Positions 4,687-60,033 of a stretch of 64,000 nucleotides of DNA are shown here, one piece after another. The stretch is from positions 86,386 to 150,385 of the forward strand of contig NZ_JADPCJ010000002.1 of assembly GCF_015670795.1 (NCBI RefSeq). Reading direction: 5' to 3'. How positions within the stretch are numbered: the first letter of the stretch is position 1; each line of letters begins with the position of its first letter. Source of the stretch: Collinsella aerofaciens (GTDB lineage: Bacteria > Actinomycetota > Coriobacteriia > Coriobacteriales > Coriobacteriaceae). Both the position numbers and the translations under genes were made by a program. The notes beneath the pieces were generated by a model, which saw only the letters and a program-made list of their open reading frames with translations, was not told the origin of the DNA and did no database searches.

Positions 4687-5418
4687 CTAGTGCAGAATCT
4701 TGGACAGGAACTCGCGGCAGCGCGGGTTCTCGGGGTTATCGAAGAAGTGCTCGGGCGTGCCCTCCTCCAGAATGCGGCCGTCCTCCATAAAGATGACGCG
4801 GTCGGCCACCTGGCGCGCAAAGCCCATCTCATGCGTCACGCAGATCATGGTGATATCCTCCTGCGCGAGCTCAATCATAACGTCCAGGACTTCCTGGACC
4901 ATCTCGGGGTCGAGCGCCGAGGTCGGTTCGTCAAACAGGATGATGGGCTGCTTGGTGCACAGAGCACGGGCGATGGCGATGCGCTGCTGCTGACCGCCCG
5001 AGAGATTCTGCGGATACTCGCCGGCCTTATGCGCCATGCCGACGCGCTTGAGCGCGGCGATGGCGATCTCGGTCGCCTCCTCCTTGCTCTTCTTTTGCAG
5101 CTTGATGGGCGCGAGCGTCAGGTTGCCGAGCACCGTCATGTTGGGATACAGGTTGAACTGCTGAAACACCATGGAGCTGTACTTGCGAGCCATCTCCAGG
5201 TGATTCTTTTTGGTGAGCGGCGTACCGTCGATAACGACCTCGCCCGACGTGGGCTCCTCCAGATAATCGACGCAACGGATGAGCGTCGACTTACCCGAAC
5301 CGGAAGGCCCGATCATTACGAGCTTCTCGCCGCGCTTGACGGTGAGATTGATATCTTTGAGCACATGCAGGTCGCCAAAGTACTTGTTGAGATGCTTGAT
5401 CTCGATCATGTCTGCCAT
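4687..5418 (-). CDS. Amino-acid ABC transporter ATP-binding protein
   Basis: This 243-residue ATPase powers the transporter encoded just downstream. Walker A is GPSGSGKST, the signature is [15 protein letters not shown] and Walker B is [13 protein letters not shown], as in the GlnQ/ArtP group. AGGGA precedes the ATG at 5418. It is the first gene of the operon ATPase, lipoprotein, two permeases, cytidylate-kinase-like protein. Confidence 0.92.
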
Positions 5419-5524
5419 GAATGTCCCTTCCCTGCGTTTACACGAGTTGAACTATTGTACGGAAAGAACCGCGTTTCCGCAGCCCACACTACATTCCCGT
5501 AAAGAACCCGCAACCTTTAACCCA

Positions 5525-5591
5525 CTCATTGGGGACAGACTTAAATGAGTGCCCGCTCATTGGGCACTCATTTAAGTCTGTCCCCAATGAG
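5525..5591. repeat. Perfect 30-bp-arm palindrome with GGGGACAG
   Basis: The arms 5525-5554 and 5562-5591 are exact reverse complements around a 7-base loop. Each arm contains CTCATTGGGGACAG followed by ACTTAAATGAGTGCCC. It lies in the 277-base gap upstream of the ABC operon and downstream of yqeY. There is no T-run, so it is not a standard terminator. It is the longest member of the GGGACAG family here. Confidence 0.9.
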
Positions 5592-5633
5592 CGCCCAATG
5601 ACCAGCCAGGGAAGGCGCCCTTCATCGGCCAAC

Positions 5634-5666
5634 AAAAAAGGGGCGCGACCGCGATGGTCACGCCCC
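5634..5666 (-). terminator. Rho-independent terminator of yqeY
   Basis: On the minus strand GGGGCGTGACC and GGTCGCGCCCC form a stem with one mismatch, followed by CTTTTTTG. It begins about 30 bases after the yqeY stop. Confidence 0.8.
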
Positions 5667-5695
5667 CTCGACATCAACTATGTACCGCTAGGACC

Positions 5696-6139
5696 CTATG
5701 CGAGCTTGGCGCCGACGATCTTTGCTGCGGCAGGCTTATCGAAGTTGCCGCCGGTGGCCTTGCCGAGTGCTCCCATGACCTGGCCCATCTGCTTCTTGGA
5801 AGTAGCGCCCAGCTCGGCGATGACCTGCTCGATCAGGGCCTCGAGCTCCTCACCCGAAACCTGCGCGGGCAGCAGGCTTTCCAGAATCTTGACCTGCTCG
5901 GTCAGGTTGTCGGTACGCTCCTGGTCAGTGCCGGCCTTGATGGACATCTCCAGTGTCTCGCTCGTCTGCTTGATCAGACGCTTGATCATGCTGTTGACGT
6001 CTTCCTCGGTCACATCGCGGCGCTCGTTGACCTCGATGTTCTTCACCTCGGCCTTAACCTGGCGAATGATGGACAGGCGAACCTTGTCCTTGGCCTTCAT
6101 GGCCGCAATCATTTCCTTCTGCAGCTCTTCGTTGGTCAT
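5696..6139 (-). CDS. YqeY / GatB-tail domain protein
   Basis: This 147-residue helical protein is of the YqeY family, related to the tail domain of the GatB amidotransferase subunit. The family pattern EEMIAAMKAKDKVRLSIIR-like start is visible as LQKEMIAAMKAKDKVRLSII, with the conserved end QMGQVMGALGKATGGNFD. The cellular role is not established; a tRNA-related role is often assumed. AGGAGG lies eight bases before the ATG at 6139, which I prefer to an in-frame TTG two codons earlier. Confidence 0.9.
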   Translation of the reverse strand: MTNEELQKEMIAAMKAKDKVRLSIIRQVKAEVKNIEVNERRDVTEEDVNSMIKRLIKQTSETLEMSIKAGTDQERTDNLTEQVKILESLLPAQVSGEELEALIEQVIAELGATSKKQMGQVMGALGKATGGNFDKPAAAKIVGAKLA

Positions 6140-6193
6140 CTGCAAATCCTCCTCAATAGTGCGGACGGCACTCGCACGAGCGCCGCCCCATGA

Positions 6194-7414
6194 TTACTCA
6201 GTCGTCGACGAATCGTCGGTCGAGCTCTTGGTGACGCCCTTCAGACTCACGTTATAGGGTACGTCCTTGGGCATGGGGTTGACGGTAATGTCGGCGTCCT
6301 TCTTGTACTGCTCCAGCCACTCGCTGTATGCAGTACTGGCCGCCTGCGTCTTCACCACGTTGGAGACGTACTTCTTGATGGCTTTGGGCACCTGGTTGAT
6401 GTCATCGACCTGATTATCGACATGGAAGTAGTCGGTGCACTTGATGATGTGGTAACCATAGGTCGACTCGACGACTCCGCTCACGTCGCCCTTGTTGAGC
6501 CCCTCGAGCGCCGTCTGGTAGCTGTCAACAAAGGTGGTGAGCTTATCCCAGCCCACATCGCCCTTCTTCTCCTTGGAACCGGTGTCCTCGGAGTACTGCT
6601 CAACGGCGTCCTCAAAACTCAGCTCACCGGAGTTGATCTTGTCCAGGCACTCCTGCGCCTTGGCCTTGGCGGCAGCCTTGTCCTCGTCGGAGGCGTCGGA
6701 ATCAACCTTGATCAGGATGTTCGACGAGCGGCGAGCATCGTTGTAGTTAGACAGATTCTCGTTGATGTAATCGACGATCTCGCTGTCCTTGGGCTTGCTG
6801 GTGGGCGCCACGGCATCCTTGAGTTTCTGCTGCGCCAGGCTCTCCTTGAGCGAATCCTTGTAGGTGTCCTCGGTATAGCCGTAGGTCTTGAGGGTCTTCT
6901 TAAAGGCCTTGGCACCGCCCGCGCTCTTGCACGCGTCCTTCCAAGCCTTCTCGACCTCCTCGTCCGACACCGTCACGCCGTTCTCCTTCTGTGCCTGTTG
7001 AAGCAGAATCTGCTGCGTGTAGGAGTCGATGAGTTGCTTGCGGTACTTCTTGGGCGTGAGGTCGTTGTCAACCAGATACTGCGCCCAATCCTTATCCTTG
7101 GTGTAGCCGTAGGACGTGCGCATGCTCATGATCTGCTTGGTCACGGTGTCCTCGGTGAGGTTGATGCCGTTGATAGTTGCAGCAACACCGCCGGTCAGCT
7201 TGTAGCCCGAGGTGTCCTCGGCCTGCGACATAAGGCCGGAGCACGCCATCACCGAGACGGAAAGCAGCATCGCCAGCACGCCGATGACCACCAGGACGAT
7301 CTTGACGGTCTTAGACACGTACGTCTTGCGCTGCTTCTTGCGAGAGCTGGAGGCAGCGCGGGCCTGCTGCTCGGGCGTCGGCGCGGCCTCGGAGTTCTTT
7401 TTCTTATTTGCCAT
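6194..7414 (-). CDS. Parvulin-type peptidyl-prolyl isomerase (PrsA/SurA-like foldase)
   Basis: This 406-residue exported folding factor has a basic cytoplasmic N-terminus and a hydrophobic segment at 37-57 ending VMAC, a weak lipobox, so it is either lipid-anchored or a signal-anchored protein. A SurA-like N-terminal region covers about 75-215 and a rotamase domain about 228-330 (GDVGWDKL, then GVVESTYGYHIIK). It probably assists folding of secreted proteins outside the membrane. The ATG at 7414 has AAAGG six bases upstream; the longer frame to 7513 reads through a repeat element and is rejected. Confidence 0.88.
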   Translation of the reverse strand: MANKKKNSEAAPTPEQQARAASSSRKKQRKTYVSKTVKIVLVVIGVLAMLLSVSVMACSGLMSQAEDTSGYKLTGGVAATINGINLTEDTVTKQIMSMRTSYGYTKDKDWAQYLVDNDLTPKKYRKQLIDSYTQQILLQQAQKENGVTVSDEEVEKAWKDACKSAGGAKAFKKTLKTYGYTEDTYKDSLKESLAQQKLKDAVAPTSKPKDSEIVDYINENLSNYNDARRSSNILIKVDSDASDEDKAAAKAKAQECLDKINSGELSFEDAVEQYSEDTGSKEKKGDVGWDKLTTFVDSYQTALEGLNKGDVSGVVESTYGYHIIKCTDYFHVDNQVDDINQVPKAIKKYVSNVVKTQAASTAYSEWLEQYKKDADITVNPMPKDVPYNVSLKGVTKSSTDDSSTTE

Positions 7415-7482
7415 AGTTGGCCTTTCGCATAACGAATCGAACAAACGCCATTGTGTCACAACGCGGCCCCCGCGGCACGCTT

Positions 7483-7571
7483 GGTGCATTGGGGACAGGT
7501 TAATCTGCACCATTTTGGTGCAAAGGGGACAGCTCTGACAGCCGGCAGTTAGGGACAGTCCCCAAGTGCCG
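7483..7571. repeat. Cluster of three GGGACAG elements
   Basis: GGTGCA (7483-7488) pairs with TGCACC (7506-7511) around TTGGGGACAGGTTAATC. A second GGGACAG lies at 7526-7532. A third, at 7552-7558, sits inside an imperfect palindrome from 7543 to 7571 with CGGCA and TGCCG ends. They fill the gap between the EIIA and foldase genes. Confidence 0.65.
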
Positions 7572-48365: not shown

Positions 48366-48929
48366 TTAAGGCTCTTTTTTGCTTTGCACGCCCTTGGCCC
48401 ACTCGGCACTGGCTCTCATGGCGTTCTCGAGGGCCTCGCGCAGTTTTTGGTCTTCGATGGGCGCCACTTGGCGCTCAATCTCGGTGCGCTCGGCATCGCT
48501 GAGGTCGGCGTGTGGGGCCGGCGGGCGCTCGGTCGCCGCTGGGCGAAGGCGCTCCTTGGCGGCGGGCGGCGTGTGACCGGGCGCGGTGGTTTTGAACACC
48601 AGGCCATCCACATGCGCACCGGCGCGCTCCATGCGCGCGCGGATGATCTCGCGCAACAACGTCATTTCCTGCGTCCACGAGGGCGAGTCGAGATATACCA
48701 GCAGCTCATTGGACTCGGGCAGGTAGCGCAGGCCCGTCACATGCCGCCCCTCGCGCGTGCCCGAGCACACCGCGTTCCACGCGCGATAGACCGCGCGCGA
48801 CTCCTCGGCGGCCTCCATCTGCGCACGGCGCTCAGGGGTCGCAGCCGCCAGGATGCGCTGGCGCTCTGCGTTCAACAAGCCACTGAAGGCGACCGTTTCG
48901 CTCTCGCGCTCGTAATTAGCACGTCTCAC
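48366..48929 (-). CDS. DUF721 / DciA-family protein
   Basis: DciA-type proteins are proposed loaders or partners of DnaB in bacteria without DnaC or DnaI. This 187-residue protein carries the DUF721 region at about 35-115 (YRAWNAVCSGTREGRHVTGL, then ELLVYLDSPSWTQEMTLLRE). A Pro/Ala-rich linker and a helical tail follow. Its position between recF and gyrB is typical for actinobacteria. The GTG start overlaps recF by 14 bases. Confidence 0.85.
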   Translation of the reverse strand: MRRANYERESETVAFSGLLNAERQRILAAATPERRAQMEAAEESRAVYRAWNAVCSGTREGRHVTGLRYLPESNELLVYLDSPSWTQEMTLLREIIRARMERAGAHVDGLVFKTTAPGHTPPAAKERLRPAATERPPAPHADLSDAERTEIERQVAPIEDQKLREALENAMRASAEWAKGVQSKKEP

Positions 48930-51136: not shown

Positions 51137-51374
51137 CTTTTAATACCTTTCTTTAGATATAAATATCTTAATAATAGTAATAGCACTGACGAAACTGTTG
51201 ATTACTCCCAAAGACGCAGGTCAGACCCAGAAAGAGAATCGACAGCAACCTGTGTGCAACGGGGGTGGTTTTCCACGTTCAAAACCTGCGCAAAACTTTT
51301 CACCACCGCGGGTTGGGTTTTAGACACCTTATGCCCATGGTTTCGACAAGTTTTCAACAGGTGTCTCTATTTCC
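51137..51374. other. dnaA-dnaN intergenic region, candidate origin part
   Basis: The 238 bases contain a very AT-rich tract at 51143-51183 (possible unwinding element or dnaN promoter), TTTTCAACA at 51351-51359, TTTTCCACG at 51269-51277 and TTTTCACCA at 51297-51305. The first is the exact complement of two sites at 54552 and 54605. In many Gram-positives this gap carries part of oriC. Confidence 0.6.
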
Positions 51375-53099
51375 CTACGAGCGCAGTGTAATTTTATCGC
51401 GCAGCGATTTGAGGTCTTCGGTGACGGTACGGTCTTCCTGGATCATCTTCTGGACCTTTTTGTAGCTCGTGCTGACGGTCGAGTGGTTGCGGTTGCCAAA
51501 TTCGGCGCCCACCGCCGTGGTCGTCATCTCGCACATCTCGATGGCCAGGTAGATAGCGATATGGCGTGCTTTGGCGATATTGGCGTTGCGACGCGGGCCG
51601 ATGAGCTCCTCGTGCGTCACGCCGTACTGCTCTTCGATGACGGACTGAACCGTCTGGACGTTGATCTTTTTGGCCGATGTGTCGAAGTACTGGCTGGCGA
51701 TGGCGTCGATATCGTCAAAGGTGAGCTCCCCGCCCTCGCGCTCGCGGTCGCCCGCCTCGCCGGCGCAGCGCTCGCAAAAGCTCTCGAGTTCGCGGATGTT
51801 GGTGCCCGAGACCTCGGCCATGTGTTTAAAGTGCTCGTCGGTCAGGTGTCCGCCGTCGCCCCCATAGGCCGCCAGCAGCGAGTCGTCGCCTGCCTCGGGA
51901 GCGGCGACGATGGTGTTCTCGTAATAGCGCTGCAAGATCTTGTATTTCATCTCGTAGCTGGGCTCTGCGACCAGGCAGAGCATGCCGGCGTTGAAGCGGC
52001 TGGTCAGACGCTCGTCCATGCTCAGGTCCTTGGGGGCACGGTCTGCCGCGATGACGACCTTCTTGTTGTTGCGGATGAACTCGTCCATGAGCTGGAAAAA
52101 GTAGTCCACGCTCGCGCGCTTGCCGATGATGTTTTGGATGTCATCGATGATGAGCACGTCCACGCCGTGGTACGCCTGCATGATGGGGGCGTTGCTCTTC
52201 TTTTGGCGGTCGAACTCGGTCATCAGGTCGTCCAGATATGCCTGGGAGTTGGCATACTTGACCTTGATCTCGGGCGACTTCTCGGCGAGCTCGTTTTTGA
52301 TGGCAAGCAGCAGGTGCGTCTTGCCCAGGCCCGATTTGCCGTAGATGAACAGTGATGTGCATGTGCCGCGCTCGTCCGCGAGGGCGGCAAACTTGAGTGC
52401 CGAGCGATAGGCATGGCTGTTTTCGGGGCCGTAGACAAAGTTCTCAAAGGTAAATTTTGAGTTCGCGGCGAGCGGGGCTCCATCCGTATTCTGCTCGGCC
52501 GGCACGGTCGGCGCCGGTATGGGTGAAGCGGGGGTCGCAGCTTGCGTGGATTTAGTCGGCGCTCCGCCCTTCATCTGGTTCATCATGCGACGAAAATCAT
52601 CGGCCGAGAGCGTGTTCTTGATTGCAATGCCCGAATCCGCGCCCGCCGCTGCGTCGTGAGCGATAGGCATGTGCGTGACGGGTGCGTTCGTTGACGTCGC
52701 CGCCGCGGTCGGCAACGGTGCCATGGTTTCACGGGAAACATCGCTGTGCTGGTGCTCGATTGTCGGCACGTCGCCTGCGGAGGTCGGTGCCGCCGGGGAA
52801 GCGGCGGGAGCCGTGGCGGGCGCCGTCGCGGCAGCGGATTCCGTTGCGGCGCCTTGCGGTGCCACGATGTCGAGCGCGATCGGTGCAAAGGCGATTTCTT
52901 CCAGATAGGCCTCAATAGTCGGCTGATGCTTTTTGAGCTGCGCGATGGCAAAGCGCGAGGGAGCCTCGATCGTGAGCGTATCTTCGGTCAGGCTTATGGC
53001 CCGCGATTGCCCCAGCATGTTGATGAGGCGTGCATCTTGGCCGTCGCGCTGGCAAAAGGCGATGGCATCCCCCAGGATGATGCTTGCTTCCTCGTCCAC
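51375..53099 (-). CDS. dnaA: Chromosomal replication initiator protein DnaA
   Basis: DnaA binds origin boxes and opens DNA. The 574-residue protein has domain I (1-80), an Ala/Pro/Thr-rich domain II (about 81-212) and an AAA+ domain with Walker A GKSGLGKTH (254-262) and Walker B VLIIDD. The C-terminal DNA-binding domain ends ITLRS. Its signature reads GNRNHSTV (535-542), with Asn538 where GGRDHTTV has Asp. The GTG start has GGGAGA upstream and lies 15 bases after the GHKL-ATPase gene. Confidence 0.97.
   Translation of the reverse strand: MDEEASIILGDAIAFCQRDGQDARLINMLGQSRAISLTEDTLTIEAPSRFAIAQLKKHQPTIEAYLEEIAFAPIALDIVAPQGAATESAAATAPATAPAASPAAPTSAGDVPTIEHQHSDVSRETMAPLPTAAATSTNAPVTHMPIAHDAAAGADSGIAIKNTLSADDFRRMMNQMKGGAPTKSTQAATPASPIPAPTVPAEQNTDGAPLAANSKFTFENFVYGPENSHAYRSALKFAALADERGTCTSLFIYGKSGLGKTHLLLAIKNELAEKSPEIKVKYANSQAYLDDLMTEFDRQKKSNAPIMQAYHGVDVLIIDDIQNIIGKRASVDYFFQLMDEFIRNNKKVVIAADRAPKDLSMDERLTSRFNAGMLCLVAEPSYEMKYKILQRYYENTIVAAPEAGDDSLLAAYGGDGGHLTDEHFKHMAEVSGTNIRELESFCERCAGEAGDREREGGELTFDDIDAIASQYFDTSAKKINVQTVQSVIEEQYGVTHEELIGPRRNANIAKARHIAIYLAIEMCEMTTTAVGAEFGNRNHSTVSTSYKKVQKMIQEDRTVTEDLKSLRDKITLRS
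52725..52740. promoter_or_regulatory. parS-like site inside dnaA
   Basis: GGTTTCACGGGAAACA differs from perfect parS at 2 of 16 positions. On the coding strand it spells VSRET at residues 121-125 of the variable DnaA domain II. Confidence 0.45.
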
Positions 53100-53114
53100 T
53101 GTCTCTCCCGTTCT

Positions 53115-54512
53115 TTAGCTCTGAGCTCGCACGCGAGCGGCGCCGAGTTCGGTCAGATGGTATTTCTGGCCATGCTTGATGACCAAGCCGGCCTGCGCCA
53201 AGTCATTGAGCGTGCGTGACCAAGTGGGGGCCGAGTTTCCAAACGCCCTCGCCAGATCGGTTGCACCGCACGCTTGATTTTGCGCCAGATAGCCCAGCGC
53301 GGCGTTGCCGCGATCGCTTACGAACACGTCCGGTTGTGGCTGCGCATACTGATTTGCTGCATTAGGATACATCATTTGAGCTGCTGGTTGTTGAGAACTC
53401 TGCATCGGCGGCATTTGCTGTTGAAAACTTTGAGGCCACTGTTGGTAAGGCTGCAGAGGCATCTGTTGGGCCCAGGGGTTGTACTGCTGCTGCGGCATCT
53501 GCTGGTACGGCTGCTGATATCCCTGCTGGTACTGCTGCGGGAACTGCTGGCCATACCCCAGTGGCGGCATCTGCTGATATGGATATCCCCGTTGGTACGG
53601 CTGATAGCCCATTTGCTGGCCACCCGGTGCCCCCGTCGCCTGCTGCATTGCTGCTGCATCCTGATCTGCCAGCGGCATGGCCTCTGGCATGTTTGGCGTC
53701 ATCGACATAGATGCCGCCTGGGGCTCTTGTGTGGGAAGCATTCCGGGCTGCTGCATCTGCCCCACGGGGGGCTGCATCTGCTGCGTTGCCATGGGCTGCT
53801 GCGCAAAAGCTCCCGGCAGGGGATATGTGGGCTGCTCCGTCTCGGGCCGCACGGCAGCACCGCGTCCGCCGGCACGCTCGATTTCCTGCACGCGTTTAGG
53901 GTTCAGGCTTACCGTAACCACGGTGCCGTTGCCCATGTTGTCCTCGATGGATACGGCACCGCCGGCGTTTTCCAAATACTCCTGCACCATGGGAAACCCT
54001 GCTCCGGTTCCACGGATATAGCGCTTCATCTTGCTGTTTGCGCTGGTAACGCCAAAGTCGAAAGCGCGTTCCTTGTCGTCGATGCCGGGTCCTTGGTCAG
54101 CAAAGCGGATGGTGTCTCCGCCGTCCAGAATCGAGATGATGGGCTCTGCAAAGTGTGCGTGGATAAAGTTTTCGACAATCTCGCGGATGACCATGAGCGA
54201 GATATGGCCACCTTGTTCTTTCATGCACTGGTAGACGGTGTTGGTCGTCTCTTCCAAATACGTGCGGACATCTTGCGGATCGATGACGATCACACGCGGT
54301 GTCGACAGCATGTCGTCATAGACGGCGATGCGCGCGGCGTACATGGCTTTTGGCGCCTGCGTTGTCGTCTGTTCACCTTCGTCACGCTCTTCGCGCACGC
54401 CGGTGATGTGCTCGTTGTCGGGTGCCGGGTCTCCGGAATCGACCATGGTGTAAAAGTCGTCAGACATGCCGCTCGCAATCTTCCAAAAGGTTTCGAACAA
54501 ATAGTAGCTCAC
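53115..54512 (-). CDS. GHKL-ATPase protein with Q/P/M/Y-rich linker and C-terminal winged-helix-like domain, upstream of dnaA
   Basis: The protein of about 465 residues is not a named family to me. Numbered from a TTG at 54539, a GHKL ATPase domain covers about 80-212, with N-box REIVENFIHAHF, DQGPGI and GTGAGFPMV, closest to SpoIIAB-like anti-sigma kinases. A low-complexity linker at 235-403 is dominated by Q, P, M, Y and G. A winged-helix-like domain follows at 405-474 (ACGATDLARAFGNSAPTWSR). The start is uncertain: GTG 54512 is used, with TTG 54539 and ATG 54467 possible. It ends 15 bases before dnaA, suggesting one transcript. Confidence 0.8.
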   Translation of the reverse strand: MSYYLFETFWKIASGMSDDFYTMVDSGDPAPDNEHITGVREERDEGEQTTTQAPKAMYAARIAVYDDMLSTPRVIVIDPQDVRTYLEETTNTVYQCMKEQGGHISLMVIREIVENFIHAHFAEPIISILDGGDTIRFADQGPGIDDKERAFDFGVTSANSKMKRYIRGTGAGFPMVQEYLENAGGAVSIEDNMGNGTVVTVSLNPKRVQEIERAGGRGAAVRPETEQPTYPLPGAFAQQPMATQQMQPPVGQMQQPGMLPTQEPQAASMSMTPNMPEAMPLADQDAAAMQQATGAPGGQQMGYQPYQRGYPYQQMPPLGYGQQFPQQYQQGYQQPYQQMPQQQYNPWAQQMPLQPYQQWPQSFQQQMPPMQSSQQPAAQMMYPNAANQYAQPQPDVFVSDRGNAALGYLAQNQACGATDLARAFGNSAPTWSRTLNDLAQAGLVIKHGQKYHLTELGAARVRAQS

Positions 54513-54539
54513 CGTGCAATGTTTCTCATCTTTCGACAA

Positions 54540-54812
54540 ACTTTCAAAACCTGTTGAAAACTTTGGAAAATGGACGAAAAGTTCTCAACATTGCCAACAT
54601 GACCTGTTGAAAACTCGATGAAATATCATGAAAAGTTGCCATGCACCGCTAAATCGAGCTTGGCTTATGGGGGAACCGTGTGAACTGCGCAACCTTTTAC
54701 CTTTGATTTCTTGACATTTGAACATTGATTTCCCTACAATCTTCAAGCTCACGTGTCTATATCTGCGTCCGCGTCCCCGCGGACACTCGAAATGCAGCAG
54801 GAGGAACTTAAG
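54540..54812. other. Candidate replication origin between divergent dnaA and rpmH transcripts
   Basis: The gap has TGTTGAAAA at 54552-54560 and 54605-54613, both inside CCTGTTGAAAACT, plus the near matches TTCTCAACA (54582-54590), TTGCCAACA (54591-54599) and TTTGGAAAA (54562-54570). Gene polarity switches here from minus to plus. The sites differ from the E. coli box (TGTGGATAA) but are clustered. Confidence 0.65.
54711..54740 (+). promoter_or_regulatory. Promoter of the rpmH operon
   Basis: TTGACA at 54711-54716 and TACAAT at 54735-54740 are 18 bases apart, 72 bases before the rpmH ATG. Confidence 0.85.
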
Positions 54813-57776: not shown

Positions 57777-57870
57777 TGTTTCACGTGAAACATAATGGTT
57801 ACTAACAGCTTGCAGTGTTTCACGTGAAACATAGCAGTTGCTATCGATTCGGAATGTTTCACGTGAAACA
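57777..57870. promoter_or_regulatory. Cluster of three perfect parS sites
   Basis: TGTTTCACGTGAAACA occurs at 57777-57792, 57816-57831 and 57855-57870, spaced exactly 39 bases start to start, between rsmG and parA. This is the ParB nucleation site that organises origin segregation. Confidence 0.97.
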
Positions 57871-60017: not shown

Positions 60018-60033
60018 TGTTTCACATGAAACG
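60018..60033. promoter_or_regulatory. Near-parS site between parB and rlmN
   Basis: TGTTTCACATGAAACG matches parS at 14 of 16 positions and lies just beyond the rlmN terminator. Confidence 0.55.

Follow-up and report, generated by a model that had tools for sequence, protein, structure and literature searches.

A GHKL ATPase-winged-helix family encoded directly upstream of dnaA in Coriobacteriia and other Actinomycetota: a candidate for replication control

Closest described systems and anatomy of the protein

The nearest solved architecture is that of DIP2311 from Corynebacterium diphtheriae (PDB 3lmm), a COG2865-type protein that carries an extra AlbA_2 domain besides its GHKL and winged-helix (wHTH) domains and is not known to be encoded next to dnaA. 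When a short homologue of the GHKL-wHTH protein described here is searched with Foldseek, DIP2311 is the best match (E 7.9e-8), followed by the catalytic domains of histidine kinases and BCKDK/PDK. Both proteins combine GHKL and winged-helix domains in a single chain, but they differ in length (about 480-560 residues for DIP2311 versus about 250 for the short homologue) and share only 12-17% identity. No AlbA_2/Schlafen-type domain is matched in the GHKL-wHTH family, whose core begins no more than about 45 residues from the N-terminus.

For the GHKL domain alone, the best sequence and fold matches are the CA domains of class I histidine kinases (HK853, WalK, ZraS, KinB). The usual N-box of histidine kinases is N/H-x3-N; the GHKL-wHTH protein has E-x3-N instead, is fused to a wHTH, and is devoid of DHp/His, sensor and membrane domains. 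The E-x3-N spacing is shared with the GHL ATPases MutL and GyrB, and MutL chains match the N-terminal half of the profile, but the transducer domain of these ATPases is missing and the ATP lid is short and of the kinase type. In the open-access literature searched, no description was found of a GHKL-wHTH family that stands alone and is tied to dnaA across classes; the domains themselves and the GHKL+wHTH pairing, as in DIP2311, are known.

The features of the locus are collected in Table 1, with positions referring to the window, i.e., the whole 64-kb stretch of Collinsella aerofaciens DNA analysed here.

Table 1. Features of the GHKL-wHTH-dnaA locus and its surroundings in the window.
Feature	Position	Strand	Basis or remark
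GHKL-wHTH gene	53115..54467	-	450 aa, conserved ATG start at 54467
GHKL ATPase core, residues 46-189	53901..54332	-	Pfam HATPase_c, invariant columns, AF2, dN/dS 0.018
Q/P/M/Y/G/A low-complexity linker, residues about 203-380	53328..53861	-	predicted disordered; dN/dS 0.277
C-terminal winged helix, residues 384-449	53121..53318	-	profile matches, AF2, dN/dS 0.093
GHKL-dnaA gap, 15 nt, with dnaA Shine-Dalgarno sequence	53100..53114	-	
dnaA, 574 aa, GTG start	51375..53099	-	Pfam Bac_DnaA 1e-41, Bac_DnaA_C 8e-21
DnaA-box-like TTTTCAACA, box 1 of upstream cluster	54605..54613	-	position conserved
Inverted DnaA-box-like TTCTCAACA (TTATCAACA in most relatives)	54582..54590	+	31-region alignment
DnaA-box-like TTTTCAACA, ~93 nt before GHKL start	54552..54560	-	best conserved of cluster
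Conserved AGCTACTAT, -10-like (AGCTNNTATCCT in relatives)	54501..54509	-	judged by eye, candidate
TTTTCAACA within linker coding sequence	53419..53427	-	sequence match
DnaA-box-like TTTTCAACA, dnaA-dnaN intergenic region	51351..51359	+	sequence match
DciA helicase-operator gene, between recF and gyrB	48366-48929		Pfam DciA 2.8e-6

The positions originally predicted for the GHKL gene, the linker, the winged helix and dnaA are confirmed, but the length of the protein, given as 465-474 residues, was slightly too long. The family N-terminus reads M-x-[DE]-D-F-Y-P-F-V-D-x-G-D-P, and in near-identical strains a stop codon stands directly 5' of KIASGMSDDFY. Because of this family conservation and these upstream stops, the start is assigned to the ATG at 54467, which gives 450 residues. 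The N-terminal region is composed of about 40 disordered residues, with a conserved tail MSDDFYxxVDSGDPAPDN, and of the first strands of the core. AF2 predicts two confident folds in the window protein (residues 45-187 and 384-449) on either side of a disordered linker, and models a linker-free homologue with a mean pLDDT of 91.8.

Profile searches bear out both folded parts. HATPase_c matches the window protein with an E of 1.1e-10, and its C-terminal end is matched by HVO_A0261_N/MarR_2-type Pfam models; among 41 family members, the wHTH is matched by HTH_IclR in 31, TrmB in 23 and MarR in 21. In the AF2 model this end has the H-H-H-strand-strand succession of a winged-helix fold, with a pLDDT of about 97, and the K/R of its wing is conserved. 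The ATP site is formed by E96-x3-N100-x2-H103 (N-box), D124-x-G-P-G128 and the G153-x-G-x-G157 lid, so that the N-box Asn, the DxGxG motif (G1) and the GxGxG lid (G2) of the GHKL superfamily are all found. In 56 sequences, E96, N100, H103, D124/G126/G128 and the lid residues G153/G157 are invariant, and G155 is conserved in >90%. From these residues, ATP binding by the GHKL domain is predicted.

The likeness to SpoIIAB put forward in the original prediction did not withstand the comparison. The protein is, like SpoIIAB/RsbW, a small soluble GHKL protein with a Glu in the N-box (here E-x3-N-x2-H), but family match and gene neighbourhood rule this class out: HATPase_c_2, the SpoIIAB/RsbW-type model, matches merely 2 of the 41 members, and weakly (best E 0.0011), versus 41/41 for HATPase_c, the family has a wHTH, and neither a STAS antagonist nor a sigma factor gene adjoins the GHKL gene, which is consistently flanked by rpmH/rnpA and dnaA/dnaN.

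Alternatively, the protein could be a GHKL kinase of the Ser/Thr type, using PDK/BCKDK or SpoIIAB chemistry with the Glu as general base; its wHTH would bring it to the origin, and it would phosphorylate DnaA or another product of the operon. The invariant E-x3-N N-box, the lack of a phospho-acceptor His domain (no HisKA match in Pfam, and no His/DHp domain in the AF2 model) and the presence of BCKDK/PDK among the profile and Foldseek matches are all in agreement with such a kinase. We nevertheless regard it as unlikely, since GyrB and MutL use the same Glu signature for simple ATP hydrolysis, the conserved neighbourhood offers no substrate or STAS partner gene, HATPase_c_2 is nearly absent from the family, and no GHKL-DnaA coevolution is detected (see below).

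The linker, on which the original prediction had placed functional weight through condensation, is a variable and weakly constrained feature of this architecture. In Coriobacteriaceae it has a median length of 195 residues and contains 60% Q/P/Y/G/M, and with its predicted disorder it could make the protein an origin condensate scaffold. Outside the class, linkers comprise 13-82 residues (median 23) of another composition, the whole protein counting about 250 residues, and some families within the order have short linkers as well. Judging from the sequences, this Q/P/M/Y stretch varies among members and is a late, derived elaboration, as its median drops from 195 residues in Coriobacteriaceae to 23 outside the class. 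Because the proteins outside the class do without it, condensation is ruled out as the core function; the dN/dS values within the C. aerofaciens group (Table 1) and the weak constraint on both the linker and the N-terminus, the least constrained parts of the protein, likewise make a condensate scaffold highly improbable.

Linkage to dnaA and distribution of the family

The distribution of the family was searched with a gapless 144-residue alignment of the core used as a profile. At 1e-12, this core profile finds the gene in 119/296 genomes overall, and a GHKL+wHTH profile finds it in 151/397. Within the class (Coriobacteriia), one copy per genome is present in 218 of 248 genomes and in 97 of 110 genera, including Collinsella, Enorma, Olsenella, Atopobium/Parafannyhessea and Olegusella; elsewhere in the phylum, copies occur in a wide range of families. 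The gene was searched for on plasmids and viral contigs, and not found there.

All 156 loci having both genes place the GHKL-wHTH gene directly 5' of dnaA and on its strand; these loci comprise 108 distinct cores when counted at <99.5% identity, and 50 when counted at <82%. These dnaA-linked genes include members from other classes (profile E down to 4e-14). The predicted precedence over dnaA thus holds throughout the survey, and homologues scattered away from dnaA, which would have spoken against it, were not seen; one apparent exception (L086) was dismissed, as a run of N breaks the scaffold. Outside the class the junctions are tight: in L144, for instance, the two genes overlap at TGATG, and in L129 and L134 they are 5-20 nt apart. 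The two genes have flipped together in L157, where their orientation is reversed against dnaN and rnpA; the inverted block spans 4996-7532 and carries inverted DnaA boxes at both ends, which could have mediated the inversion.

True absence from many genomes of the class is mostly ruled out. Among the 20 listed class genomes without the gene, 12 have no DnaA hit at all, which reflects an assembly gap at the origin, and one has a contig starting inside dnaA. The remaining seven have dnaA in a normal rnpA-dnaA region and look like real losses: the gene is near-universal in the class but can be lost. With at least seven such genomes, it is therefore dispensable in some lineages. When divergent homologues were sought with the family HMM in 17 upstream regions of families without a hit, a single weak match was obtained (E 1.6e-5), on the opposite strand.

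DnaN, YidC and Jag all evolve faster than the GHKL core. The distances of the core track those of DnaN (r 0.88), and the gene is therefore, on this comparison of sequences, vertically inherited. A mirror-tree analysis gave no signal of specific GHKL-DnaA coevolution (r 0.30, partial -0.06), although DnaA fragments in some loci may add noise. The lack of any sign of specific GHKL-DnaA co-adaptation and the apparent losses in some lineages count against a replication regulator.

The rpmH-rnpA-yidC-jag-parAB / dnaN-recF-gyrB order is anciently conserved, and position alone is therefore no proof of function. As the non-replication genes rnpA, yidC, jag and rsmG are equally fixed at the origin, the protein could be a general or stress-regulon transcription factor, frozen beside dnaA by origin gene order and without any direct role in initiation, in line with its wHTH of the IclR/TrmB/MarR type and with its dispensability in some lineages. 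Such a regulator seems rather improbable to us, given that the gene shares the strand of dnaA, that in several lineages it overlaps dnaA or ends within 15-20 nt of it, that it follows DnaA boxes, and that it stays with dnaA in the inverted pair.

The upstream control region and the origin

The candidate DnaA boxes predicted beside the start of the gene are real, but their sequence is not canonical. The canonical box TTWTCCACA has no copy in the window, and TTTTCAACA has four (0.23 expected), all within 51351-54613; the 12-mer AGTTTTCAACAG occurs six times in the genome, four of them in the GHKL-dnaA locus. When the regions upstream of the GHKL gene are aligned for 31 Coriobacteriaceae, they contain, in order, TTTTCMACAGG, the inverted TTATCAACA, TTTTCAACA at about -93, a partial inverted box, AGCTNNTATCCT and the start codon, i.e., as many as four elements resembling DnaA boxes, together with one resembling a -10 element. 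This footprinting revealed DnaA-box-like and -10-like elements and nothing else that could be an operator of the wHTH. Several Collinsella and Enorma carry the box inside the linker coding sequence, some 310-334 nt ahead of the stop codon.

Precedents exist elsewhere for DnaA autoregulation and for bipartite origins on either side of dnaA (PMC8203912). The upstream region looks like a DnaA-autoregulated promoter/origin whose first gene is the GHKL gene instead of dnaA, and in Collinsella the GHKL-wHTH gene is apparently the leader of a DnaA-controlled operon. The predicted apparent operon with dnaA at the origin is supported, and relatives of the gene stay beside dnaA in every surveyed locus having both genes. 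The gap has the predicted length; it runs, however, from the stop codon to the GTG start of dnaA, and the Shine-Dalgarno sequence GGGAGAG is inside it rather than beyond it. A promoter or terminator separating the two genes, which would weaken the operon, was looked for on the coding strand: no such site is present between them in the window, but conserved -10-like elements occur in the longer gaps of Atopobiaceae (a box, then TATACT) and Eggerthellaceae (TACAAT). In these two families dnaA may have an extra promoter, and co-transcription is therefore not necessarily exclusive everywhere.

Several features of DnaA and of the surrounding region were observed alongside. DnaA of the window has a long domain II rich in Ala and Pro, and with 309 bits against NCBIfam TIGR00362 it does not reach the cut-off of 343.9 bits. 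Its domain IV signature GRDH[ST]TV is altered to NRNHSTV in the C. aerofaciens group, and reads GRSHATV, NRTHATV or GRKHATI in Atopobiaceae; DnaA of the window and of L013, L114 and L154 was compared. These altered signatures accompany TTWTCAACA-type boxes, although the two do not strictly go together among Collinsella with RDH, and a changed DnaA-box recognition is possible. Three perfect parS cores GTTTCACGTGAAAC are located directly upstream of parA (57778-57869, 39-nt spacing), one-mismatch sites are found at 52726, inside dnaA domain II, and at 60019, and L153 and L156 have parS-like sites between the GHKL gene and dnaA. L132 and L151 have 14-15 canonical DnaA boxes downstream of dnaA, in the dnaA-dnaN intergenic region, versus 0-3 in Coriobacteriia, and their main origin box cluster appears to be on the other side of dnaA.

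A possible role in replication control

To our knowledge, no initiation regulator with a GHKL fold has been described, and initiation control is largely open outside E. coli, Bacillus and Caulobacter. Many bacteria have no identified DnaA regulators, and DciA (Rv0004), once the product of an unknown gene in the dnaN-recF-gyrB cluster near the origin, turned out to be an essential protein of replication (PMC5720831). DciA thus provides a precedent in the same operon cluster, although its domain is unrelated and its gene lies on the other side of dnaN-recF.

We give about even chances to the GHKL-wHTH protein being a product of the dnaA operon that regulates the origin/dnaA promoter by ATP-dependent DNA binding. 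The observations behind this reading are the domain anatomy, the distribution, the conservation of the ATP site and of the wHTH, the position 5' of dnaA, the upstream boxes and the -10-like element; we infer from them nucleotide-dependent DNA binding, a target site and an effect on dnaA or initiation. In Collinsella, the regulator would be a soluble protein and the first gene product of the dnaA operon. Since its gene lies behind a DnaA-box cluster, production of the regulator would be coupled to the autoregulation of DnaA. The GHKL domain would bind ATP, and possibly hydrolyse it through the invariant Glu96, and thereby set a dimeric or conformational state; the tethered winged helix would then bind a site at the origin/dnaA promoter. 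Acting with DnaA, the regulator would in this way adjust transcription of the dnaA operon, origin firing or both to the ATP status.

More tentatively, the family might represent an ancient class of initiation control in the Actinomycetota other than Actinomycetes, in which a GHKL ATPase switch encoded in the dnaA operon and having its own DNA-binding domain couples ATP status to origin firing; we see this as possible rather than probable. Its fixed position and strong conservation make the protein a good candidate for a control protein of chromosome replication. A single gene that several classes keep 5' of dnaA, and whose conservation exceeds that of the sliding clamp, is a concrete and testable candidate, and one that is accessible in common gut bacteria such as Collinsella, Eggerthella and Olsenella.
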